Positions 5,768-18,333 of a DNA stretch of 64,000 bases are shown here, piece after piece (the first letter of the stretch is position 1; each line of letters begins with the position of its first letter). The stretch comes from Plantactinospora soyae (GTDB taxonomy: Bacteria > Actinomycetota > Actinomycetes > Mycobacteriales > Micromonosporaceae). Position numbers and translations under genes: made by a program. Location: contig NZ_JADBEB010000001.1 of assembly GCF_014874095.1 (NCBI RefSeq), forward strand, positions 4,464,001-4,528,000. Direction: 5' to 3'. Below the pieces are notes generated by a model. The model was not told where the DNA came from and searched no databases. It saw nothing but the letters and a program-made list of their open reading frames with translations.

Positions 5768-6154
5768 TCAGGCGACTCGGAGCCGGGTTACGGATGCCAA
5801 CCGGGTGCTGTCGACGGCACCGGTGACCTCGTTGGGACGGTCGATTGGCGGCGACGTCGACTCCGCCGCACCGACACCTGCCGGGTCCGGCGCGTCCGCC
5901 TCCGGAGTCGGCCCATCCGACGGCCCGGCGGTGACGGTCGAGTCGACGGACGTCAGGATCTCGTCGAGCGTCGAGGCGAGCCTGCGCGCGTCACCGACGT
6001 CCAGCCGGAAGGATCCCCGGCACACCGGTCCGAGCCACAGGGACATCACGACGGTGCCACGCTCGCTGTGATAACTGACCCGCATCGTCCGGTCGCCGCC
6101 GCGCGTATCAGTGAACAGATCACCGAAGCTCGGCATCGGCAGTACCTCGCTCAT
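5768..6154 (-). CDS. small hypothetical protein
   Basis: A 128-residue protein with a folded-looking first half (FGDLFTDTRGGDRTMRVSYH, GTVVMSLWLGPVCRGSFRLD, DARRLASTLDEILTSVD) and a Pro/Asp/Ser-rich tail. The beta-strand/helix pattern is seen in small uncharacterised actinobacterial proteins. I do not recognise a family. ATG at 6154 is used; ATG at 6136 has a better-spaced GAGG. The gene diverges from the SARP regulator across about 125 bp and converges on the membrane-protein gene. Confidence 0.6.
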   Translation of the reverse strand: MSEVLPMPSFGDLFTDTRGGDRTMRVSYHSERGTVVMSLWLGPVCRGSFRLDVGDARRLASTLDEILTSVDSTVTAGPSDGPTPEADAPDPAGVGAAESTSPPIDRPNEVTGAVDSTRLASVTRLRVA

Positions 6155-6280
6155 GGTTCCAGGATGCGCGAAGAGCGGTCGGCTGGGAAGGGCCGACAAC
6201 CGGGGAGCGGGCCCGGGCCGGGGTCCCGTCGGTGGGTCGACCCCTTGCCTCGGTACCCGCCGCACGCCACGCTGTTAGGC

Positions 6281-9200
6281 ATGGGGGACGGCATGACCGT
6301 AGCTCGGGAGGACCTTTCCGGCGCGCCTTCCGGTGCTGTGGGCGGTGACGGCGGTGACGCCGTACGGGTGGAGATCCTCGGGTCGGTACGGGCGTGGCGC
6401 GGCGAGCGCCTCATCGCCTTCTCCTCGCCCGGTCAGCGCACGGTTCTCGGCCTGCTGGCTCTCGCGGCGGGCCGGCCGATGACCCGAGCGGAGATCATCG
6501 ACACGCTCTGGGACGACAGCCGGTCGCCACCGACCGCGACGAACATCATCCAGACCCACGTCAAGAACCTCCGTCGCCTGCTCGAACCCGGTCGCCCGAC
6601 CCATACCCGCAGCGCCGTCCTGCCCCGGATCGGGGACGGGTACGCGATGGCCGTACCGGCGCAGAACCTCGATCTGCTCCTCTTCCGTCAACTCGCCGGC
6701 ACGGCCGCCGAGGCACAGCGTCGGGGTGACCCGTCCAGCGCGGCCCGACTGTGGCAGCGGGCGTTGGCGCTCTGGCGTGGTGCGCCGCTCGTCGACGTCC
6801 CGTTGCTGGCCCGGCATCCGAAGGTCATCGCGCTGCTGGAGGAGCGGCGGGCGGCGGTGACCCGGTACGGCGAGGTCATGATCGCCATCGGCCGGGCGGC
6901 GGACGTGCTGCCGGCGCTGGAGGAGGCCGCCGGGCAGAGCCCGCTCGACGAGACGGCCCAGGGCCTGTTGATCCGGGCCTACCACGCCATGGGGCGGCGG
7001 GACCGGGCCGTCTCCGCCTTCCGGGAGGTCCGTCGGCGGCTCGTCGAGGAGTTGGGGGTCGAACCCGGACCCGAGCTGACCGGTGCCTATCGCGCCGCGC
7101 TGCGTACCCGGGACCAGGGCACGCCAGCTCCGGCCCAGCCGGCCGGGCGGCCGCAGGCGGAACCGGTCCGAAAGTCCGGCCCCGCGCAGCTTCCCGCGGA
7201 CGTGTCCGGCTTCATCGGACGCTCGGCCGAGGTGTCCATGTTGGACCGGCTGCTGCTGCGGCCGCCGGAGGAGGGCTCCGCGGAACCGTCCGCGGTACCG
7301 ACGGTCGTGCTGTCCGGCACCGCCGGGGTGGGGAAGACCGCCCTCGCGCTGCGCTGGGGCCACCGCGCCCGACACCGGTTCCCCGACGGGCAGCTCTACG
7401 TGAACCTCCGTGGCTACGACATCGCCCAGCCGATGCCACCACGGGAGGCACTGGCCGGGTTCGTCCGCGCCCTGGGTGTGCCCGGCAGCGAGGTCCCGTT
7501 CGACCTCGACGAGTGCGCCGCGCGGTACCGCAGCCAACTGGACGGCCGGCGGATGCTGATCGTCCTGGACAACGCGGCATCGGTGGAGCAGGTACGCCCA
7601 CTGCTTCCGGGCAGCGCCTCCTGTGCCGTACTGGTCACCAGCCGGGACACCCTCGCCGGCCTGGTCGCCCGGGACGGCGCGGACCGGATCGGACTCGACC
7701 TGCTCTCCACCGCCGACTCCGTCGAACTGCTCTGGCGGACTCTCGGTGAACGGGTCGCCCGGGAGTCCGAGGCTGCCGCCGCACTCGCCGGTCGCTGCGC
7801 GCGGCTGCCGCTGGCCCTGCGGGTCGCCGCCGAACTCATCCTCACCCGGCCGAGCGCGCCGCTGGCCGTACTGGTCCGGGAACTGGCCGACGAGCAGGGT
7901 CGGCTCCACCTGCTCGACGCCGGTGGCGATCCACGGACCGGAGTCCGGGCGGTGCTGTCCTGGTCGTACCGGCAACTGGCGCCGGCCACCGCGCGGGCCT
8001 TCCGGATGCTGGGCCTGCACCCGGGGCCGGACATCGACCGGTACGCGGCAGCCGCCTTCCTCGGCACCGAACCCGAGCCGGCCCGACAACTGCTCGACAC
8101 GCTCGCCCGGGCACACCTCGTGCAGCCCGAGGGCGATCAGCGGTACGCCTTCCACGACCTGCTCCGCGCGTACGCGGCCGAACGCTCGGCGGCCGACGAG
8201 TCACCGGCCGAGGCCGATGCCGCCCTGGACCGCCTGTTCGACTACGAACTCTTCGCCGTGGCGGCGGCGATGGACATGTTGTACCCGGCGGAGCGGCACC
8301 GCCGCCCACAGGTCGGTACGCCGTCGGTGACCCCGGCACCGATCACGGATCCGCAGGCCGCCCGGGAGTGGCTGGACGCCGAACGGGCGACCCTGGTCGC
8401 GACGGCGGTCCGGGCAGCCGAACGCGGCCGGCCCTCGCACGCCATCCGGATGACCCTGACGATGCTGCGGTACCTGGAGAGCGGCGGCTACTTCGCCGAG
8501 GCCGAACGGATGCACGAGCACGCCCTGGACGCGGCGCGGAACACCGGTGACCGGATCACCGAGGCGCACCTGTTGACCGGGCTCGCCGTGATGTGCGCCC
8601 AGCAGGGCCGCTACGCCCCCGCGATCGAGCGCCTGCGCCGGGCGGTCCTGCTCTGCCGCGAGTACGGCGACAGCGCGGGTGAGGCCCGGGCGCTGGGCAA
8701 CCTCGGCCACGTCCACCAGCGCCAGGGCCGGTACGCGGAGGCCGCTGTGGCGCTGCGGGACGCCCTGCTGCTGTGCCGGCGGGTCGGTGACCGGGCCGGC
8801 GAGACCCGGGCGGCGGGCAACCTCGGCCATGTGCTGCTGCGGCAGGGCGGCTACCGCGAGGCGGCGGTCCATCTGCGGAGCTCCGCGATCCTGTGCCAAC
8901 GGATCGGGGACACCACCGGAGAGGCGTACGCGCTGGCCAGCCTCGGTGAGCTGCACGTGCGCGTCGGACGGCTGCCGAGGGCCGCCAGCCGGTACCAGCG
9001 GTCACTGGCGCTGTTCGAGGCGGTCGGGGACCGGGCCGGGGAGGCGCACGCCCTGGACGGTCTCGGTCGGGTCCGGCTCCGGCAGGACGACCACGCCGCC
9101 GCGCTGATCGCCATCGAGCAGGCGCTCACCCTGCTGCGCCGGGTCGGTGAACGGGCCGGCGAGGCGTCGTCGACCAACAGCCTCGGTGAGTTGCTGTACC

Positions 9201-9445
9201 GCCTCGGCCAGCCCGTACGGGCGCGGTCGGAGCACTCCACCGCGCTCACCCTGGCCAGCGAGATCGGGGACCCGTACGAGCAGGCCCGGGCGCACGCCGG
9301 ACTGGCTCGGGCGTACCGGGCGACCGGTGACCTCGAAGGTGCCGCGACGCACTGCAACTCGGCGAACGCGCTGTACCTGATGCTCGGGGTGCCCGAGGCG
9401 ACCGAGTGCCGCGAGGAGCTGGCCATCCTCGACCGTCAGGCCTGA
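6281..9445 (+). CDS. SARP-family transcriptional regulator with NB-ARC and TPR domains (AfsR-like)
   Basis: About 1054 residues. An OmpR-type winged helix (about 28-115; RTVLGLLALAAGRPMTRAEI) is followed by a bacterial transcriptional activator domain (about 120-265). An NB-ARC ATPase module carries the P-loop GTAGVGKTAL near residue 346 and a LIVLDN Walker B. The C-terminal third is TPR repeats, each about 40 residues (LGNLGHVHQRQGRYAEAA and variants). ATG at 6281 is chosen; ATG at 6293 follows a GGGGGA and is an alternative. Such proteins usually activate secondary-metabolite or developmental genes. The prenyltransferase unit just downstream is a plausible but unproven target. Confidence 0.92.
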   Translation: MGDGMTVAREDLSGAPSGAVGGDGGDAVRVEILGSVRAWRGERLIAFSSPGQRTVLGLLALAAGRPMTRAEIIDTLWDDSRSPPTATNIIQTHVKNLRRLLEPGRPTHTRSAVLPRIGDGYAMAVPAQNLDLLLFRQLAGTAAEAQRRGDPSSAARLWQRALALWRGAPLVDVPLLARHPKVIALLEERRAAVTRYGEVMIAIGRAADVLPALEEAAGQSPLDETAQGLLIRAYHAMGRRDRAVSAFREVRRRLVEELGVEPGPELTGAYRAALRTRDQGTPAPAQPAGRPQAEPVRKSGPAQLPADVSGFIGRSAEVSMLDRLLLRPPEEGSAEPSAVPTVVLSGTAGVGKTALALRWGHRARHRFPDGQLYVNLRGYDIAQPMPPREALAGFVRALGVPGSEVPFDLDECAARYRSQLDGRRMLIVLDNAASVEQVRPLLPGSASCAVLVTSRDTLAGLVARDGADRIGLDLLSTADSVELLWRTLGERVARESEAAAALAGRCARLPLALRVAAELILTRPSAPLAVLVRELADEQGRLHLLDAGGDPRTGVRAVLSWSYRQLAPATARAFRMLGLHPGPDIDRYAAAAFLGTEPEPARQLLDTLARAHLVQPEGDQRYAFHDLLRAYAAERSAADESPAEADAALDRLFDYELFAVAAAMDMLYPAERHRRPQVGTPSVTPAPITDPQAAREWLDAERATLVATAVRAAERGRPSHAIRMTLTMLRYLESGGYFAEAERMHEHALDAARNTGDRITEAHLLTGLAVMCAQQGRYAPAIERLRRAVLLCREYGDSAGEARALGNLGHVHQRQGRYAEAAVALRDALLLCRRVGDRAGETRAAGNLGHVLLRQGGYREAAVHLRSSAILCQRIGDTTGEAYALASLGELHVRVGRLPRAASRYQRSLALFEAVGDRAGEAHALDGLGRVRLRQDDHAAALIAIEQALTLLRRVGERAGEASSTNSLGELLYRLGQPVRARSEHSTALTLASEIGDPYEQARAHAGLARAYRATGDLEGAATHCNSANALYLMLGVPEATECREELAILDRQA

Positions 9446-9487: not shown

Positions 9488-10327
9488 TCAGTGCGACGTT
9501 CCCAGTTGTCCGCGCCACTGGCGCAGGGCGGCGACCAGTTCGGCCGGCGCGCCCGCCTGACCCAGACGCCGGGTCTGATCCTCGACGTAGCGCCGATAGA
9601 GGTGCACGAGACCCGCGGCCAGCAGCGGCGCGGCCTGGGCCGGGTCCAGCGGCTGTCCTGCCCGGACCTGGGCGGCCAGCCGGACCAGCGGGGTCGCGAT
9701 GGCCTGCGGCTGGGCCAGGTACCACGCGATGGCCTCGTCGTTGGTGGCGGCACGTCCCATGGTCATCGTGTTGGAGTAGAGAAACCGGACCGGGAACAGT
9801 ACGGCCTTGGTGAACCAGACGGGGTCCGCCAGGAGCCGGCGAGGTCGGTGGAGTTCGGCGGTCACCTCGTCGGTCGCCAGGACCTTGACGGCGAACTCGG
9901 CGCTGTCGACGAGCAGCTCGTCGGCGGTCGGGACGGCGACCTGCGGGGCCACCTCGGAGCCGAGCAGCAGGACCCCCTGCTCGGCCAGGTCGAGACGGTC
10001 GATGACGGGGAACCGCCCGTCGTGGTGGCCCCGGCGCAGCGCGGGCAGGGAGGCCCAGAACACGGAGAGCTTGCGGTGCAACGCACCACGCTGGCCCAGG
10101 GTCTGGCAGGTCTGCGCGACGGTCTCGGTGTCGCCGCCGCGGGTCTCGGTGATGACGACGGCCAGGTCGATGTCGCTGACCGCAGGGGCGTAGCCGCCGT
10201 GCGCGAGGCTGCCCAGGGCGTAGGCGGCGAGAAAGCGGTCGGCGAACACCTTCTGGAAGTCGTGGGCGCAGTCCAGCGCGACTGCCCGCGCCGCAGCCGC
10301 CGGGCCGTGCCCATCGACCGTACTCAC
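9488..10327 (-). CDS. nucleotidyltransferase-fold protein
   Basis: A 279-residue protein. Near its N-terminus it has the polymerase-beta-type motif GSLAHGGYAPAVSDIDLAVV, where the G-S and D-x-D residues would bind nucleotide and metals. A helical C-terminal half follows (VWFTKAVLFPVRFLYSNTMT, EAIAWYLAQPQ). The frame continues far upstream, but GTG at 10327 overlaps the TGA stop of the prenyltransferase-diiron gene by 4 bp (GTGA), which marks the real start and implies coupling. Relatives transfer NMP to small molecules or proteins, or act as antitoxin-like folds; which applies here is unknown. Confidence 0.85.
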   Translation of the reverse strand: MSTVDGHGPAAAARAVALDCAHDFQKVFADRFLAAYALGSLAHGGYAPAVSDIDLAVVITETRGGDTETVAQTCQTLGQRGALHRKLSVFWASLPALRRGHHDGRFPVIDRLDLAEQGVLLLGSEVAPQVAVPTADELLVDSAEFAVKVLATDEVTAELHRPRRLLADPVWFTKAVLFPVRFLYSNTMTMGRAATNDEAIAWYLAQPQAIATPLVRLAAQVRAGQPLDPAQAAPLLAAGLVHLYRRYVEDQTRRLGQAGAPAELVAALRQWRGQLGTSH

Positions 10328-12030
10328 GCGGCGGTGTCGCGCAGGGCGCACTCGGCGATGCGGTCGGAGACGACGGTGATGACCTGCCAGGCGCGATCCA
10401 GTACGACCAGCACGTCGTCCACGGCCCAGTCGGTGCGCTGCCGCAGGATCTGGTACCCCATGTCGAGGTGCTCGACGTCGGCCTCGTCGTGCAGGTCGAA
10501 GTACGGGTCGTCGGGGAAGGCCCGCACGCCGGCCTTGCTGAGCGAGAGGCTGCCGGCCTCCAGGGCCAGGTGCGCGAGCACCACGCGCTGCACCCCCGGA
10601 AGCGTGGCGAACTGGTCGACGAACCAGGACGCGCCCGCTTCGATGACGGGATCCCAGACCTCTCGCTGGTCCTCCGCCCGGCTCCGGGCCAGGATGGCGT
10701 CGTGGCCGATCTCCTCCTGCTGGTGTTCCAGGGCGAGCTTTCGTAGGGCCGGGTCGGCCTCGTAGATGACCCGGGCGCTGATCATGCGCTGGAAGGCGTT
10801 CGACCACGGCTGGAGGTACGTCAGGACCGCCTTCTTCGTGGTGTCCGGGGTTGCCTCGTCCGACAGCAGACGGATGAGGCGGGACGACTCGTACTGCTCT
10901 TGCCGCGCGGTGTTGTAGTCGGCGACGCGTTGCAGGGCCGGGTGGCTCACGGTGGGCTCCTTAGCTACGAGCACGCCGGGTCGGGACGCGACCGGCGTGG
11001 GGGCTGACTGGTCGTAGACGGGGAAACGGAAGTAGGTGGTGATGTCGTCGTGGCGTCGCGCGGCCCGGTGGCTGACGAGTTCGAGTACGCCCCGACTGCC
11101 CGCCAGCGCGGTGGCGACGGCCTGCAACGGCCGAGGGTCCACGCCCTGACTGCGCAGCAGGTTCGCGGCGCGGTCCACCGCTTCCGCGTTGCCGGACGCC
11201 AGACTCGACATCCGCAGGTACGTCGTGGACTCGGCGGCCCGGCCCAGGCCGGATCGGAACGCCAGACAGGTCAGCGCCTCCGCACCGGCATCGGCCCGCG
11301 CGCCGGCGAGCGTCCGGTACGCGGCCAGCGCGCCGTCGGTGTCGTGGTCCAGCGCCACCGACGCCATCCGGTTCAGCTCGTCGATGTCGGCCCCGTGGTT
11401 CCGATAGTAGATCTTGGCGCGGGACTCCTGCGTGTCAGCGAGGTCGAGGCCGAGGAACTCGATCTCCCGTCGGCCGGCCTGGCCGTCTTCCTCCACCCGC
11501 CGGTGGGCGTCCTCCCACGCCTGCGCCATACCCAGTCGTTCCATTGCCCGAGTCAGCGCGGAAAAGCGCTGCTCGACCGGCCAGGAGTACAAACCGAAAT
11601 ACGCTTTGTAGACCACTCGCCCGGGTGGACGCCACGCCATCGAGTACCACAGAGGCGCCGTCGCGAAGACCTCCCTGACCTGACCGAACCGACGTGAGTC
11701 CGCAGTCAGGGCGGGCCATACGCTATTCGCGTCGGACAGGCAGTCGAACAACACCCGCAGTTCAGGGCGTCCTCCCGACCAGTTCATTGACATTTCTGCC
11801 GGGAACCCGTCCGCGGCGACAAACGACGGTTGGCCGGGCGCGTCCCCAATCCGCTCGCCAGCCCACGCCGGAAGCAGTTTGCGCAGCTCCTGAGTGGTTT
11901 GCGCGGCCTGCCCGGCGGGCACCGCGAGGGCCTCGCACGCACTGGCCCACAAGCCACACAGGAACTCGTCGAATCGCAGATCCCGGACGTGGGAGCCCTT
12001 CAGCCATGGGGCGCTCACCACCCGGTCCAC
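10324..12030 (-). CDS. DMATS-type aromatic prenyltransferase fused to a haem-oxygenase-like diiron (HDO) domain
   Basis: A 568-residue two-domain protein. Residues 1-340 match the bacterial indole/aromatic prenyltransferase (DMATS, ABBA-fold) family: FPAEMSMNWSGGRPELRV (76-93), YKAYFGLY (141-148), RAKIYYRNHGA (204-214), TCLAFRSGLG (254-263) and a closing TYFRFPVYD (332-340). Residues 365-560 are all-helical and carry E439-x3-H443, E491 and H514-x3-D518-x2-H521, the ligand pattern of haem-oxygenase-like diiron oxidases. GTG at 12030 directly abuts a GAGG; GTG at 12021 is better spaced. Prediction: prenylation of an aromatic substrate plus an O2-dependent step. Assignment of the first Glu ligand is uncertain. 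Confidence 0.85.
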   Translation of the reverse strand: MDRVVSAPWLKGSHVRDLRFDEFLCGLWASACEALAVPAGQAAQTTQELRKLLPAWAGERIGDAPGQPSFVAADGFPAEMSMNWSGGRPELRVLFDCLSDANSVWPALTADSRRFGQVREVFATAPLWYSMAWRPPGRVVYKAYFGLYSWPVEQRFSALTRAMERLGMAQAWEDAHRRVEEDGQAGRREIEFLGLDLADTQESRAKIYYRNHGADIDELNRMASVALDHDTDGALAAYRTLAGARADAGAEALTCLAFRSGLGRAAESTTYLRMSSLASGNAEAVDRAANLLRSQGVDPRPLQAVATALAGSRGVLELVSHRAARRHDDITTYFRFPVYDQSAPTPVASRPGVLVAKEPTVSHPALQRVADYNTARQEQYESSRLIRLLSDEATPDTTKKAVLTYLQPWSNAFQRMISARVIYEADPALRKLALEHQQEEIGHDAILARSRAEDQREVWDPVIEAGASWFVDQFATLPGVQRVVLAHLALEAGSLSLSKAGVRAFPDDPYFDLHDEADVEHLDMGYQILRQRTDWAVDDVLVVLDRAWQVITVVSDRIAECALRDTAA

Positions 12031-12524: not shown

Positions 12525-13079
12525 TCAGGTGCTGACCGGCAGGCGTGCCATGGCGTGCCGCACCAGCTCGATCAGCGCCTTCTTGCTGGACGACCGGTCC
12601 CTGGCATCGCACCACAGGAGCGGAACGCTCGGGTCCAGCTTCAACGCCGTACGGATCTCCTCTTCGCTGTACAGGCACTCGCCGTAGAACCGGTTGACGG
12701 CGGCGACGAAGGGAATGCCACGCCGCTCGAAGTAGTCGATCGCGGGAAAGCTGGTCCCGAGCCTTCTGGTGTCGACGAGCACGATCGCGCCGACCGCGCC
12801 CTGGGCGAGCTCGTCCCAGATGAACCAGAACCGGTCCTGGCCCGGTGTGCCGAAGAGGTACAGGACGACATCGGGGGTGATGGTGATGCGGCCGAAGTCG
12901 AGCGCCACGGTCGTACTCGTCTTGTCCTCCACCCCCGTTATGTCGTCCACGCCGACGCTGGCCTGGGTCAGGACCTCTTCAGTGGTCAGCGGCGGAATCT
13001 CGCTGACCGATCCGACCAAGGTGGTCTTGCCGGTGCCGAAGCCACCGGCCACGACGACCTTGACCGATTTGCGATCCAC
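12525..13079 (-). CDS. cvnD: conservon GTP-binding protein
   Basis: A 184-residue small GTPase of the Ras-like MglA/CvnD type. It has a P-loop GGFGTGKTT (12-20), the switch-II region LYLFGTPGQDRF in place of DTAGQ, and a base-recognition segment VAAVNRF. It is the last gene of a four-gene conservon (sensor, roadblock, DUF742, GTPase). Such membrane-associated complexes behave like eukaryotic G-protein relays in Streptomyces. GTG at 13079 is supported by AAGGA 9 bp upstream. Confidence 0.92.
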   Translation of the reverse strand: MDRKSVKVVVAGGFGTGKTTLVGSVSEIPPLTTEEVLTQASVGVDDITGVEDKTSTTVALDFGRITITPDVVLYLFGTPGQDRFWFIWDELAQGAVGAIVLVDTRRLGTSFPAIDYFERRGIPFVAAVNRFYGECLYSEEEIRTALKLDPSVPLLWCDARDRSSSKKALIELVRHAMARLPVST

Positions 13080-13098: not shown

Positions 13099-13464
13099 CT
13101 AAAGTCTTTCGAGACCGGCGAGAACCGTCTCCAGCAGCCGACGATCCGCGATCTTCCGCTGCGCGGGAGCTCCGATGCCCAGGAACCCTTGTTCGAGGAG
13201 TACGTCGACCATCACCTTCGTGATGGTGAGCGGGCGATGCAGGTACGCGCCGATCTCGGCTATGGATATCCAGCCGGAGCACCGGTTCATGATCTCCTTG
13301 TACTCCGGCTCCAACCGCGTGGTGTCGGCCGGCAGGGCGATTACCTGCGTCGCCAGGTCCAGGTTGGTGTTCCGTGGAGTCGTACGTCCGTTGACGAGGA
13401 TGTACAGCGGCACGAGCCGCCCGGCCTCGCCGTCGTCGTCGCCGTCCCACACGTCATACGTCAT
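13099..13464 (-). CDS. cvnC: conservon DUF742 protein
   Basis: A 121-residue DUF742 protein with the usual opening (an acidic patch, then AGRLVPLYILVNGRT) and a winged-helix-like body (SIAEIGAYLHRPLTITKVMV). The ATG at 13464 lies within the last codons of the roadblock gene (11 bp overlap). An upstream extension to 13506 lacks a ribosome-binding site. DUF742 proteins link the sensor and roadblock components to the GTPase; the biochemical role is not established. Confidence 0.9.
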   Translation of the reverse strand: MTYDVWDGDDDGEAGRLVPLYILVNGRTTPRNTNLDLATQVIALPADTTRLEPEYKEIMNRCSGWISIAEIGAYLHRPLTITKVMVDVLLEQGFLGIGAPAQRKIADRRLLETVLAGLERL

Positions 13465-13891
13465 GGCCTGTGCCAGGTTGGCCGGTGGGCGCCATCGCGA
13501 CGGCACGTATCTTGGTGCCGAGGTACTCGCCGATCCGGGTCACCAGGCGGCCCATCTCGTACGCGACCATTCCCATGTCGACGGACTGCTCACAGAGTAC
13601 GGCCAGCCGGGCGTTCGGTCCGGCGGCGGCGACGAACAGGGTCTGGCCGTGGTACTCGATGATCACCTGCTGGACGGGCCCGCTGTCGAAGCGGCGGCCC
13701 ATCCCGGCGGCGACGCTGTACAGCGAGGAGGCACCGGCCGACAGGAGTTCAGCGGCGTCCTGCGGCAGCGAGGTGGATTTCTGCACGATCAGTCCGTCGG
13801 TGGAGAGGACGACCGCGTAGACGACACCGGGAAGCTCGACAAGGTCGTCCAACATCCAGGTCAGGTCATTCTGCGACGTCGAGTTGGTCAT
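13454..13891 (-). CDS. cvnB: conservon roadblock/LC7 protein
   Basis: A 145-residue roadblock/LC7-fold protein (MLDDLVELPGVVYAVVLSTD, GRRFDSGPVQQVIIEYHGQT). In the MglB/CvnB family these proteins dimerise and act on the partner GTPase, probably as a GAP or scaffold. Its ATG overlaps the TGA of the sensor gene by 4 bp (ATGA) and its end overlaps the DUF742 gene, so the four proteins are made in a coupled manner. Confidence 0.92.
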   Translation of the reverse strand: MTNSTSQNDLTWMLDDLVELPGVVYAVVLSTDGLIVQKSTSLPQDAAELLSAGASSLYSVAAGMGRRFDSGPVQQVIIEYHGQTLFVAAAGPNARLAVLCEQSVDMGMVAYEMGRLVTRIGEYLGTKIRAVAMAPTGQPGTGHDV

Positions 13892-16521
13892 GCTTTTCCG
13901 CCTTGGTCAGCTTTGGTTTCTGTTTCCTCGTTGCCCGCTGCCCGGCCGGCCGCCCAGGCCTGCTGGTACTGCGAGAACCGGTTCCGGGCCTCCTCCGGCG
14001 ACCGCGCGGGCTCCGTCGGTCCCTTCGTGCCGGTACCGGGCAGGCTGTCGTCGCGCAGTTCGGGGACGAGGTGCTGTTGTGGTTGCCGGTGCGGCAGCGG
14101 CGGACGGGCGGCAGCCTGTGGGCTGGCCGCTCCGGCGGGCTTCGGGCTGGCCGTTCCGACGGACTTGGCACCGGGCGCCGGAGCGGACCTGGGGCCGCTC
14201 GGCCCGGCGGGTTTCGGGCTGGTCGTTCCGGTCTCCGCCGTACGCCTGGCGGACGGCTCCGATTGTCGAGGTGTGCTGGCGCTGCTGCTCGGTTGACGGT
14301 CGCTCATCACTCCGCCCGCGCGGTCGGGTCGTCGGCTGTCGCCGCTGTGGGGGTTGCGTAGGGTCTGGACCGATCCGTTCGAGACCATCACGCCCCCCGG
14401 GGCCGGAGCCGCGGTGCCGGGACGCGGTTCGCGGCGACCGGTGCCACCCAGCGGGGATCCCGGGGCGGCTGCCGGGGACAGCGGGGCACCCACGTCCATA
14501 CCGTCGTCGACGTTGTCGCCGGGGTCGGCGGCGATCACCCGGTCGGGCAGGAGCACGATCGCCAGCAGCCCGCCGTACGCCGAGGTGCGCAGGCTAACCC
14601 GGATGCCGTCCCGCTTGGCCAGCTCCGCCACCACGTGCAGACCGACCTGTGCGCCGTCCTTCAGCGCCGTCACGTCCGGCGTCGGCGCGGTGGACAGCAG
14701 CTCGTTCGCGCGTTCGAGCGCGTCCGGCTTCATTCCCACTCCGCCGTCTTCGATCTCCACCGCGACACCGCGCTTGACCTGGTTGCAGGTGACCCAGACC
14801 GTCGTCCCGGGCGGGGAGAACGCGAGAGCGTTGTCCAGAAGTTCGGACAGGAGGTGGATGGTTCCGGCGACCGCGTGTCCCACCAGCGCGACGTCGGGGG
14901 CGTTGCGCAGCGTGATCCGCTGGTACTGCTGTGCCTCGGCGAAGGCCGCCAACAGCACCCGGCGGACCGGCACCGGATTCTGGAAGCGCCGGCCGATCTG
15001 CCCGCCGGCCAGGATGACCAGGTTCTCCAGGAAGCGCCGGGTCTGGGTGAGCTGGTGGTTGATGTCGAAGAGTTCCGTCAGCAGCTTCTCGTCGCCGACC
15101 CGGTTCTGCAGGTCCTCGATGACCTTCAGGCCCCGCTGGAGGGGGCGCTGCGGGCGCCGCGCGACGCCCATCAGCATCGCGAGGCCGGCGGCCCGGGTCT
15201 TCGCCTCGTCGATCGCCGCCCCCGCCGCGGCCTTCAGCGACCTGTTGATGACCTCGGCGACCTGACCGATCTCGTCACTGCCGTAATCCTGGTTGGGCAA
15301 CTCGACCGCGAGGTCGACCTTTTCGCGCCGACGTAGTCGTTCCATCATCGCCGGTAGTCGTTGGTCCACCACCGACGCGGCGTCCTTGCCCAGCCGGGCG
15401 AGGCGGACGGAGAGCGCCTGGTCCACCAGGACCTGCGACTGGCGGATCGCCCAGACGATGGCGGCGATCGCGATGGACAACGCGATGAGACTGCCCAGCG
15501 ACGCGGTCAGCAGCTGGTTGTTACCGGTACGCAGCGTCTCTGCCGAGACCCGGTCCGCCTGGACGATGCTCATATTGATCAGCTCGTCGGAGACCTGGCG
15601 CGTGATCGTCTCCCAGCGAGCCCGGTTCAGGGGCACGCTGCGGGGTACGCCGTTCTGCCATGCCCCGGCGGCGACGAGCGCGTTCTCCGCGGCGACGAGC
15701 TCCTTCCAGGGCTCGCTCGCCACGATGGTCTCGAAACGCTTGCGGACCTCCGGTTCCAGCTGCGGCGCGACGTTGGCCAGCGCGAAATGGTAGGCGCCGA
15801 TCAGTTTCACGAACTCGAGATGGTCCTGCTGGTTGAGCTGGCGCGAGCTGAAGGCGCCGTCAATGGTGGACCCGGCCCGGGACATCAGGTCACTGGCCCG
15901 GAACGCGTCCGTCGCGGTGAGGCCGCCCAGGGACGCGGCCACGTCGGGCACGATCCGGGCCTGGGTGTCGAAGAGGTTCGTCGCGGCGTCCAGCAGGTTG
16001 TTGTAGTAATCGTAGATCCGTTGCCCACCGACCGACCGCGAATCGATCGTGCTCCGTACGCTCGGCAACTGGTCCAGGTAGTCGGTCAGCGTCCGCCACC
16101 GCGTCTCAATGGACTGGGGAGCATTCGCCAACGCCGCATTGGCGGCGGTACGCAGCGCGGACAGGCGCTGATCGGTCTGTTCCCGTTGGCCGATCAGCGC
16201 CTGGAGGTCCCTCGACGGCTGGGCCAGATAGGCGACGCTCAACCGCCGTTCCTGTTGGACCGAGGCCAGGGCGGGAACCGCGGGAATCGACACGTTGCGG
16301 ACGCTGTTGGCGACTGTTCGGTTGTAGAAGCCCTGGAAGACGAGGTATCCGGACGCCACGAGCCAGAGCGCCAGGGCGACGACGCCCGGGATGAGAACCA
16401 GCCTGATGACGCGCCGTTTGATGGACTGCTGCCGGCCACGGCGCCGACTCGACGCTGTCGACTGATTGCGGTTATCCGAATCAGGTTGCCTGCTTGCGTG
16501 GTCGGCCTGGTTATGCGCCAA
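13888..16521 (-). CDS. cvnA: conservon sensor histidine-kinase-like protein
   Basis: An 877-residue membrane sensor. A basic N-terminus precedes a membrane segment (about 38-62), then a nitrate-sensor-like (NIT) extracytoplasmic helical domain, a second membrane segment (about 333-352), a HAMP-like linker and a histidine-kinase-like ATPase domain (LLSELLDNALAFSPP; IEDGGVGMKPDALERANELL). The dimerisation helix reads GVARRPQRPLQRGLKVI and lacks a clear phosphorylatable His, as in other conservon sensors. The last 200 residues are a Pro/Ser/Ala-rich disordered tail. No cytochrome P450 (CvnE) follows the set. Confidence 0.92.
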   Translation of the reverse strand: MAHNQADHASRQPDSDNRNQSTASSRRRGRQQSIKRRVIRLVLIPGVVALALWLVASGYLVFQGFYNRTVANSVRNVSIPAVPALASVQQERRLSVAYLAQPSRDLQALIGQREQTDQRLSALRTAANAALANAPQSIETRWRTLTDYLDQLPSVRSTIDSRSVGGQRIYDYYNNLLDAATNLFDTQARIVPDVAASLGGLTATDAFRASDLMSRAGSTIDGAFSSRQLNQQDHLEFVKLIGAYHFALANVAPQLEPEVRKRFETIVASEPWKELVAAENALVAAGAWQNGVPRSVPLNRARWETITRQVSDELINMSIVQADRVSAETLRTGNNQLLTASLGSLIALSIAIAAIVWAIRQSQVLVDQALSVRLARLGKDAASVVDQRLPAMMERLRRREKVDLAVELPNQDYGSDEIGQVAEVINRSLKAAAGAAIDEAKTRAAGLAMLMGVARRPQRPLQRGLKVIEDLQNRVGDEKLLTELFDINHQLTQTRRFLENLVILAGGQIGRRFQNPVPVRRVLLAAFAEAQQYQRITLRNAPDVALVGHAVAGTIHLLSELLDNALAFSPPGTTVWVTCNQVKRGVAVEIEDGGVGMKPDALERANELLSTAPTPDVTALKDGAQVGLHVVAELAKRDGIRVSLRTSAYGGLLAIVLLPDRVIAADPGDNVDDGMDVGAPLSPAAAPGSPLGGTGRREPRPGTAAPAPGGVMVSNGSVQTLRNPHSGDSRRPDRAGGVMSDRQPSSSASTPRQSEPSARRTAETGTTSPKPAGPSGPRSAPAPGAKSVGTASPKPAGAASPQAAARPPLPHRQPQQHLVPELRDDSLPGTGTKGPTEPARSPEEARNRFSQYQQAWAAGRAAGNEETETKADQGGKA

Positions 16522-17096: not shown

Positions 17097-17444
17097 TCAT
17101 GCGGCGCCGGTGTTCACCACGCAGCACAGATTGTCGTCCGGATCGGCGAGCACGACGAAATTCGCGTCGTCGGGATAGCCCCACGGAACGCGTCGGGCAC
17201 CGAGCGAGATCAGCCGTTCGACCTCCACCCGCTGCTCGATCTCGTCGGCGACGTGCAGATCGAGGTGCGTCGAGTCGGTCTCGTCGAGGGTGATGGCCGG
17301 CCCGTTCCCGTCCGGCGGCACCAGCACCGGGGAGTCGTCGCCGATCGGGCCGTCGCGCAGGACGTACTCCCACGCGCCGGTCCAGAACCGCGCGGCCCGG
17401 TGGACGTCGGCGACGTGTAGGACCACTGTTCCGATCCGCACCAT
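17097..17444 (-). CDS. VOC-family (glyoxalase/bleomycin-resistance fold) protein
   Basis: A 115-residue single vicinal-oxygen-chelate domain with both beta-alpha-beta-beta-beta halves: VRIGTVVLHVADVHRAARFW at the start and THLDLHVADEIEQRVEVERL midway. It ends with the NFVVLADPDDNLCCVV strand typical of the fold. Candidate metal ligands are His9, the His in HLDLHV and a late acidic residue. Such small VOC proteins can be lyases, isomerases or drug-binding proteins; the context does not discriminate. Confidence 0.85.
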   Translation of the reverse strand: MVRIGTVVLHVADVHRAARFWTGAWEYVLRDGPIGDDSPVLVPPDGNGPAITLDETDSTHLDLHVADEIEQRVEVERLISLGARRVPWGYPDDANFVVLADPDDNLCCVVNTGAA

Positions 17445-17528: not shown

Positions 17529-18284
17529 TCAGCCCAGGCCCGCCACGATCGCCCGGGCCACCGGCGAGGGGTCGGTGCCGTCCAGGACGAACCCGTCGGG
17601 AACGTCCACCCCGGGCTGGGCGAGCATCCGGGGCGTGGTACCCCGGTGCGGCCAGGTCGCGGTGTGCACGATGAAGGGGTGGCACAGGTAGACGTCGCCG
17701 GCCCGGCCGGTGGCCTCCGCCGTACGACGGCAGAACACCGACGCTTGCAGCCGCTCGGCGACCGCTCCGCCGCCCATCCCCGCCTCGCCGGCCGGGGCGA
17801 GGACCCGGGCCGCGTACGGGTGGGAGCCCACCACGAGCCGGGTCGGCGCGTCGTCGGGGCCGACGTCGGAGAAGAGGAACAGCGCCAGGAGACCCCGGCC
17901 CCGGGAACGTACATTGGTCCAGTACTCGTCGCCGCCCCACCAGTTGCCCTCGATGTGGTGGCCCACGTCGCCGGGGTACTCCTCGGACGGAAACCGCACC
18001 GGTACGCTGCCGCCCACACCCGTACGCCGGGTCCAGCGCCCCGGACCGATCAGCGTGTCGTACGCCTCGACGAGCGCCGGTGACGCCCCGGCGGCCGTGA
18101 ACGGTGCCCCCTCGGGGCAGTCGACGTGGACGCAGGGGCGGGCCCAGGTGCTCCGGTCCGGTTCGGATATCCCGTGCTCGGCCAGCGCCTCCCAGATCAG
18201 GCGCCGGCAGCCGGCGGCGGTCTCCGGCTCGAAGGCACCGCGTACGGCCACGAAGCCGTCCCGTACGAAGGCGTCGACGTCCAT
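17529..18284 (-). CDS. phytanoyl-CoA dioxygenase (PhyH)-family oxygenase
   Basis: A 251-residue Fe(II)/2-oxoglutarate-type oxygenase. MDVDAFVRDGFVAVRGAF is the classic PhyH opening. The facial triad appears to be His110-x-Glu112 (GHHIEGNWW) and His207 (IVHTATWPHRG), with Arg219 available for 2-oxoglutarate. Glu in place of the usual Asp in the H-x-D motif is noteworthy. The frame stays open upstream, overlapping the phospholipase-like gene, but ATG at 18284 starts the family-like N-terminus. Its substrate is unknown; relatives hydroxylate secondary metabolites or lipids. Confidence 0.85.
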   Translation of the reverse strand: MDVDAFVRDGFVAVRGAFEPETAAGCRRLIWEALAEHGISEPDRSTWARPCVHVDCPEGAPFTAAGASPALVEAYDTLIGPGRWTRRTGVGGSVPVRFPSEEYPGDVGHHIEGNWWGGDEYWTNVRSRGRGLLALFLFSDVGPDDAPTRLVVGSHPYAARVLAPAGEAGMGGGAVAERLQASVFCRRTAEATGRAGDVYLCHPFIVHTATWPHRGTTPRMLAQPGVDVPDGFVLDGTDPSPVARAIVAGLG

Positions 18285-18333
18285 CCATCCAGTGTGGTTC
18301 CCCCGTCCGCTCGACGCACCCGGGTTTCCGGCC

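Follow-up and report, generated by a model that had tools for sequence, protein, structure and literature searches.

A putative prenyltransferase–diiron oxygenase fusion with an overlapping nucleotidyltransferase gene in a conservon-linked cluster of Plantactinospora soyae

The window analysed here is a 64,000-nucleotide stretch of the Plantactinospora soyae genome (GCF_014874095.1, contig NZ_JADBEB010000001.1, positions 4,464,001 to 4,528,000), the source genome (G000) being a single contig of 9.7 Mb. On the reverse strand, a single open frame with a GTG start (P0001, 10324–12030) encodes 568 residues, in which a DMATS-type indole prenyltransferase (PT) domain (residues 1–345, 10996–12030), assigned from Pfam, PDB sequence and Foldseek matches, is joined to a haem-oxygenase-like diiron (HDO) domain (residues 361–568 plus stop, 10324–10950), assigned from alignment, metal ligands and fold. 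A linker separates the two (residues 346–360, 10951–10995). The TGA of this frame shares four nucleotides (GTGA) with the GTG of a 279-residue frame on the same strand (9488–10327), which by its profiles and conserved residues encodes a nucleotidyltransferase (NT) weakly resembling aminoglycoside nucleotidyltransferases (ANT). The original prediction, made from the letters of this DNA, had given the frame, its coordinates and length and the GTGA overlap as we find them. Its interpretation of DMATS and HDO in one chain with a coupled NT also stands, although the fusion proved to be local to one genus.

In the first half, the Pfam profile Trp_DMAT (PF11991) matches with E 9.6e-9 and 35.5 bits, passing its curated cut-off of 25 as had been anticipated; the narrower DMATS model of NCBIfam, TIGR03429, gives E 1.6e-13 and 50.7 bits and does not reach its cut-off of 163.85. 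The whole-genome family search (E≤0.001) did not pick up the PT in G000 and likewise returned nothing in 14 control genomes. With phmmer, the best PDB sequence is the aromatic prenyltransferase 4yl7 (E 1.3e-23), followed by 4yzj, 6zry, 6zrx, CymD, 7w8u and PriB. The full-length protein was modelled with AlphaFold2 from a three-row alignment (mean pLDDT 66.7), and the best 50 Foldseek rows for this model were all DMATS-type prenyltransferases, headed by the 6-dimethylallyltryptophan synthase 6zrx (E 2.5e-14), with MpnD, TleC, CymD, IptA and the S. coelicolor 5-DMATS shortly after and no HDO protein among the 50. As modelled, the PT has the DMATS fold, in common with the solved bacterial enzymes 6zrx, IptA (7w8u), S. 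coelicolor 5-DMATS (6zrz), MpnD (4yl7), TleC (4yzj), CymD (6os5) and PriB (5inj), at 20–26% identity in the model alignments; the depositor names and chain lengths of these enzymes indicate no HDO partner, unlike the window protein. Eight positions (E79, K142, Y144, R204, K206, Y208, Y271 and Y333) are invariant in all 19 prenyltransferases of HDO-linked loci. We take these to be the DMATS active-site residues, namely the indole-binding Glu and the diphosphate-binding Lys, Arg and Tyr, which the solved enzymes presumably share. L-Tryptophan is the likely acceptor, judging from the family and the context of the cluster.

In the second half, E440, H443, E491, H514, D518 and H521 form a full 3His/3carboxylate set that is kept in all 20 HDO loci; five of these had been correctly predicted and the sixth, E440, overlooked. 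They fit the pattern D/E-x2-H; E; H-x3-D/E-x2-H (E440/H443, E491, H514/D518/H521), in agreement with the three His and three carboxylates on core helices described for HDO proteins in the available parts of PMC11611611 and PMC13108848. A model of the domain adopts a haem-oxygenase/TenA/HDO-like helical fold with structural matches to AetD, HDO and TenA proteins, AetD being the best match in the PDB, tied by other proteins of the fold. Fold and ligands thus bear out the predicted HDO, whereas the Pfam profile Haem_oxygenas_2 stays under its cut-off (E 9e-4, 19.5 bits against 28.9); in our view this profile labels part of the HDO superfamily and does not define it. Scanned alone, the domain matched no family in Pfam or NCBIfam. 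It is most likely a diiron oxygenase, with two metals predicted to activate O2.

The portions of the literature available to us describe AetD as converting tryptophan to an indole nitrile in aetokthonotoxin biosynthesis (PMC11611611), SktA as converting 5-bromotryptophan to 5-bromoskatole, and the pair as two HDOs acting on ring-modified tryptophans (PMC13108848). The HDO domain resembles AetD in its fold, its 3His/3carboxylate set and a Phe near the place of the extra Glu ligand of the N-oxygenase SznF (PMC13108848, PMC11611611, in part), whereas the substrate of AetD is a brominated tryptophan and that expected here a prenylated one. Identity to AetD is ∼12%, the ligand letters and their spacing differ, and a sequence search of the PDB gave no match to the domain; we therefore rejected it as a true AetD-type nitrile synthase and say only that it may work like AetD. 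SktA is likened by description alone, as an HDO on a ring-modified tryptophan, and not by sequence or structure. In SznF, too, the HDO is a single domain of a bigger protein, but its partner is a C-terminal cupin rather than a PT, and it carries the extra Glu. By our own placement Phe occupies that position in the window protein, suggesting that the domain has no extra Glu at the first iron.

We searched with an HDO profile and found 8 of 354 genomes in the window's family (9 loci), 10 of 394 in a second family (f21) and 2 of 394 across the class, one of which was G000; with locus L001, the total is 20 loci. In 17 of these, spread over two actinobacterial families, PT, HDO and NT occur as a trio, so that the NT does travel with the other two, and in 17 of 17 trios the HDO stop shares four nucleotides (ATGA or GTGA) with a start codon for the NT. 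On sequence grounds the unit is PT–HDO–NT rather than the fusion. At L038 and L039 an HDO precedes a very different DMATS gene, with no NT, and at L093 the HDO carries a cupin on its N-terminal side, the stretch examined containing no PT.

The NT carries a G-S...D-x-D motif in 17 of 17 trios, with G39, S40, D52, D54, D66, D103, D110 and K174 invariant. Its closest named profiles and PDB matches are aminoglycoside adenylyltransferases, all weak, and it was rejected as a curated ANT at 16.9 bits of the 400, and 16.6 of the 193, required. Within the family, its relatives at E <1e-130 come from seven trio genomes only, the next best match being at 6.9e-9. Since the NT start overlaps the HDO stop, a role for the NT in the pathway is favoured. 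At L001:9698-10517 the NT match is split over two frames, the gene being either broken or mis-sequenced near its end.

The fusion itself is confined. Among the 354 family genomes, the fused frame is present in four, G000, G333, G334 and G337, all from one genus represented by seven genomes, and the other three proteins are 75–79% identical to that of the window. Both trees place the four together, with SH-aLRT 99 for PT and 94 for HDO. The other 13 of the 17 trios have PT and HDO as two neighbouring genes: in L001 (Amycolatopsis sp. 2-2), L035, L036 and L037 the PT has its own stop and available HDO starts lie −4 to +48 bases from the PT end, and in nine of nine trios of f21 the PT stop is overlapped by an ATG (ATGA). 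The linker corresponds to the PT end, stop codon and spacer of the split loci. It is predicted to be disordered, with pLDDT 25 for residues 341–350, 31 for 351–360 and all values below 50 for 337–361. As read from these sequences, the two genes became joined in frame within a single genus by loss of the PT stop codon. An artefact of sequencing or assembly, for which the separate genes in 13 trios might be taken to speak, is extremely improbable given a single open frame in four genomes at this level of divergence, whose proteins group in both trees; the frame is therefore not the product of a sequencing frameshift merging two genes, which the original prediction had named among its possible refutations.

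The HDO start codon of the split loci is kept inside the fused frames, as GTG in the window (10950–10948), L032 and L034 and as ATG in L033. In all four a purine-rich stretch precedes it, which in the window includes the Shine–Dalgarno-like AAGGAG (10957–10962). When in-frame start codons were ranked by duplex formation with the 16S tail, this codon came 6th of 31 in the window and 1st of 29, 1st of 26 and 3rd of 37 in the others; 17%, 7%, 1% and 9% of codon positions in the respective frames had an equally strong upstream duplex. The four sequences are related, and the test is suggestive only of a retained HDO start, from which a free HDO may be made beside the fusion.

The region directly upstream of the fusion holds, on the same strand and at ∼0.5 kb from the start of the PT, a conservon of four genes in a row, which the original prediction had not mentioned: a CvnD-like GTPase (12525–13079; Pfam ATP_bind_1, E 2.4e-31), a CvnC-like DUF742 protein (13099–13506; DUF742, E 4.4e-22), a CvnB-like Roadblock/LC7 protein (13454–13891; Robl_LC7, E 7e-18) and a CvnA-like sensor kinase-like protein (13888–16521; NIT, E 1e-33, and HATPase_c, E 2e-11). 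Conservon genes lie near 15 of the 17 trios, in either orientation; L085 and L087 are the two for which no such gene turned up nearby. Ozaki et al. report, in the part of PMC3617294 available, that a conservon was present in every cluster with an IptA-like prenyltransferase that they identified. According to the same source, the second enzyme is a tryptophanase in Type A clusters, which yield 6-dimethylallylindole-3-carbaldehyde, and a flavin monooxygenase (FMO) in Type B (SCO7467/SCO7468), which takes 5-dimethylallyltryptophan to the acetaldoxime; the dehydration from there to the acetonitrile is only presumed. The minimal system envisaged by the original prediction is a compact unit within a published kind of actinomycete cluster, conservon plus indole prenyltransferase. 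Membership of this kind makes the expectation more specific than that of the original prediction, with L-tryptophan as acceptor and HDO as side-chain enzyme. As had been predicted, no polyketide synthase (PKS) or non-ribosomal peptide synthetase (NRPS) gene was found among the ten neighbouring window genes scanned.

The PT tree has 41 rows drawn from part of the 59 genomes matching P0001; of its 17 DMATS loci with the label 'other', 8 served as comparators. Short stretches showed conservon matches for three of the eight (G342, G070 and G309) and not for the other five; in longer stretches the four conservon genes were present in all eight, along with a tryptophanase-family gene immediately behind the PT, as in Type A. 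Three of these tryptophanases, checked with NCBIfam, passed the subfamily model and not the equivalog cut-offs, and the comparator L098 also has an FMO-like match at 37%. HDO and NT were absent from all eight, and conversely neither the tryptophanase of L094 nor the FMO of L040 was found in any of the 17 trio loci; the window cluster, having neither enzyme, was accordingly rejected as Type A or Type B. Closer to the window PT are the prenyltransferases of L040–L044, each with an FMO gene next door (Pfam FMO-like in L040, matches in five of five). No conservon was found in the examined stretches of these loci, in which respect they differ from the published picture of Type B. Beside the L040–L044 pairs are genes for a glycosyltransferase, a dioxygenase and an FAD-oxidase, as seen from a domain scan of L040.

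In the PT tree a branch with SH-aLRT 83 sets the 17 trio PTs apart, beside the FMO group. A warning of the tool flags that this group and the one containing the tryptophanase-type rows meet at long branches, so that the deep order of this tree is unsure. In the HDO tree, where only a few branches have good support, the HDOs of split trios fall into more than one group. Like Types A and B (PMC3617294, available part), the window cluster has a conservon next to a prenyltransferase of DMATS/IptA-like kind, together with a second enzyme for the tryptophan side chain. It differs in that the second enzyme is a putative diiron HDO accompanied by an NT, in that the PT is on its own branch, and in that PT and HDO are fused in the window's genus. 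It reads as a third type of conservon-linked indole prenyltransferase cluster, which we label Type C.

Probably, then, this is a prenyl-tryptophan cluster of a third type with HDO as side-chain enzyme and an NT. The PT would transfer dimethylallyl from DMAPP onto the indole ring of L-tryptophan, and the HDO would grip the prenyl-tryptophan by its amino-acid end at the 3His/3carboxylate diiron site and use O2 to remodel or cleave the side chain, occupying the role of the tryptophanase or the flavin monooxygenase. Side-chain remodelling is expected because the second enzymes of Types A and B attack the side chain and because AetD and SktA act on ring-modified tryptophans. Most likely it would proceed in the manner of AetD, with oxime, acetonitrile and skatole as near variants. 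By analogy, prenylated indole-3-carbonitrile is the single most likely product, its chances being well short of even, followed by the oxime and acetonitrile or the skatole. The NT could nucleotidylate the product or an intermediate, activate an oxime or protect the producer, and the conservon would sense and regulate. In this genus the lost stop codon would link PT and HDO, and the internal start might supply a second HDO in free form. A bolder version, which we regard as speculative, has the fusion as a bifunctional enzyme for prenylation and nitrile or oxime rearrangement and the NT making a nucleotide-linked prenyl-indole or driving dehydration, within a conservon-controlled unknown class of small molecules, signalling or antibiotic.

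The NT might be a self-resistance or detoxifying enzyme resembling aminoglycoside nucleotidyltransferases, a possible though doubtful role that is compatible with the PT and HDO part of the scheme: its nearest profile and PDB matches, all weak, are aminoglycoside adenylyltransferases, but the universal overlap with the HDO gene favours a pathway step and the NT is absent beside the HDO–DMATS pairs of L038 and L039. Alternatively, the HDO could be an N-oxygenase that makes an aldoxime whose hydroxyl the NT nucleotidylates on the way to a nitrile, so that a different path would lead to what Type B makes in the end. The overlap of NT with HDO in all 17 trios would suit this; against it, no oxime is known to us to be activated by nucleotidylation. 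Type B does yield 5-dimethylallylindole-3-acetaldoxime with its dehydration merely presumed (PMC3617294, in the available part), whereas the Phe that we place at SznF's extra Glu (PMC13108848, PMC11611611, likewise) speaks against an N-oxygenase, an argument tempered by HrmI, a 3H/3C N-oxygenase in the portion of its source at hand. On balance we think this route quite unlikely.

It is also unlikely that the acceptor is not free tryptophan but tyrosine, an indolactam-like compound or another aromatic, with an unrelated oxidation by the HDO. The distance of the PT from all solved relatives, even the bacterial ones, leaves room for this, as among these relatives are MpnD and TleC, which are indolactam enzymes, and DMATS1, whose structure was solved with L-Tyr. 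However, the conservon-linked relatives are tryptophan enzymes in the available part of PMC3617294, every comparator has a tryptophanase-family gene, and the scanned neighbours include no NRPS. We therefore retain the prenyl-tryptophan cluster as the preferred reading.

Several neighbouring features are recorded here. Convergent with the NT is a gene for a SARP/AfsR-like regulator with BTAD, NB-ARC and TPR domains in a domain scan (6068–9445, forward strand), whose membership of the cluster is uncertain. Relatives of 1019–1060 residues are encoded close to L099 and L100, both of Type A, and big regulators also near L001, L038 and L099, the BTAD domain being shown for L099 only. Beyond the conservon, ∼17529–18300 on the reverse strand suggests by eye a phytanoyl-CoA dioxygenase-like protein, adjoining a glyoxalase-like gene (17097–17444). 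Elsewhere, L038:5854-9178 (G004) holds HDO, divergent DMATS and DAHP synthase genes in that order, without NT or conservon, the DAHP synthase fitting an aromatic amino-acid precursor; L039:8754-11456 (G003) has a methyltransferase, HDO and divergent DMATS in a row, with the full trio L035 elsewhere in the genome. At L093:8913-10052 (G788), a 379-residue cupin protein with a C-terminal HDO-like domain keeps all six ligands and is followed by a 690-residue aminotransferase-domain protein; it resembles SznF with the domain order reversed. Near upstream of the trio in L086–L092, on the strand opposite the PT, all seven loci carry a gene of one family (443–448 residues). For the L089 member the match to cytochrome P450 is weak (E 0.00096, under the cut-off), whereas for a relative in L093 it is clear (E 2.3e-15).

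In the literature searched, which lay outside subscription papers, we found no report joining a heme-oxygenase-like diiron enzyme with a prenyltransferase, none combining prenyltransferase, tryptophan, heme oxygenase-like and nucleotidyltransferase, and none linking a conservon with a nucleotidyltransferase; a query for dimethylallyl, tryptophan and diiron since 2019 gave off-topic titles only. 'Prenyl' does not occur in the HDO review or the AetD paper, nor 'fusion' in the review, in the text available. The PT–HDO fusion enzyme was thus not met in the literature searched, from which its absence from print does not follow. If our reading is correct, the cluster would be a third answer to the fate of prenylated tryptophan in actinomycetes, and would offer a probable tryptophan-type diiron oxygenase in a compact, easily expressed three-gene unit, together with a natural PT–HDO fusion for HDO enzymologists. 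The split, overlapping and fused forms together illustrate how an enzyme fusion can arise, and the presence of the NT hints at chemistry that has no model in either published cluster type.
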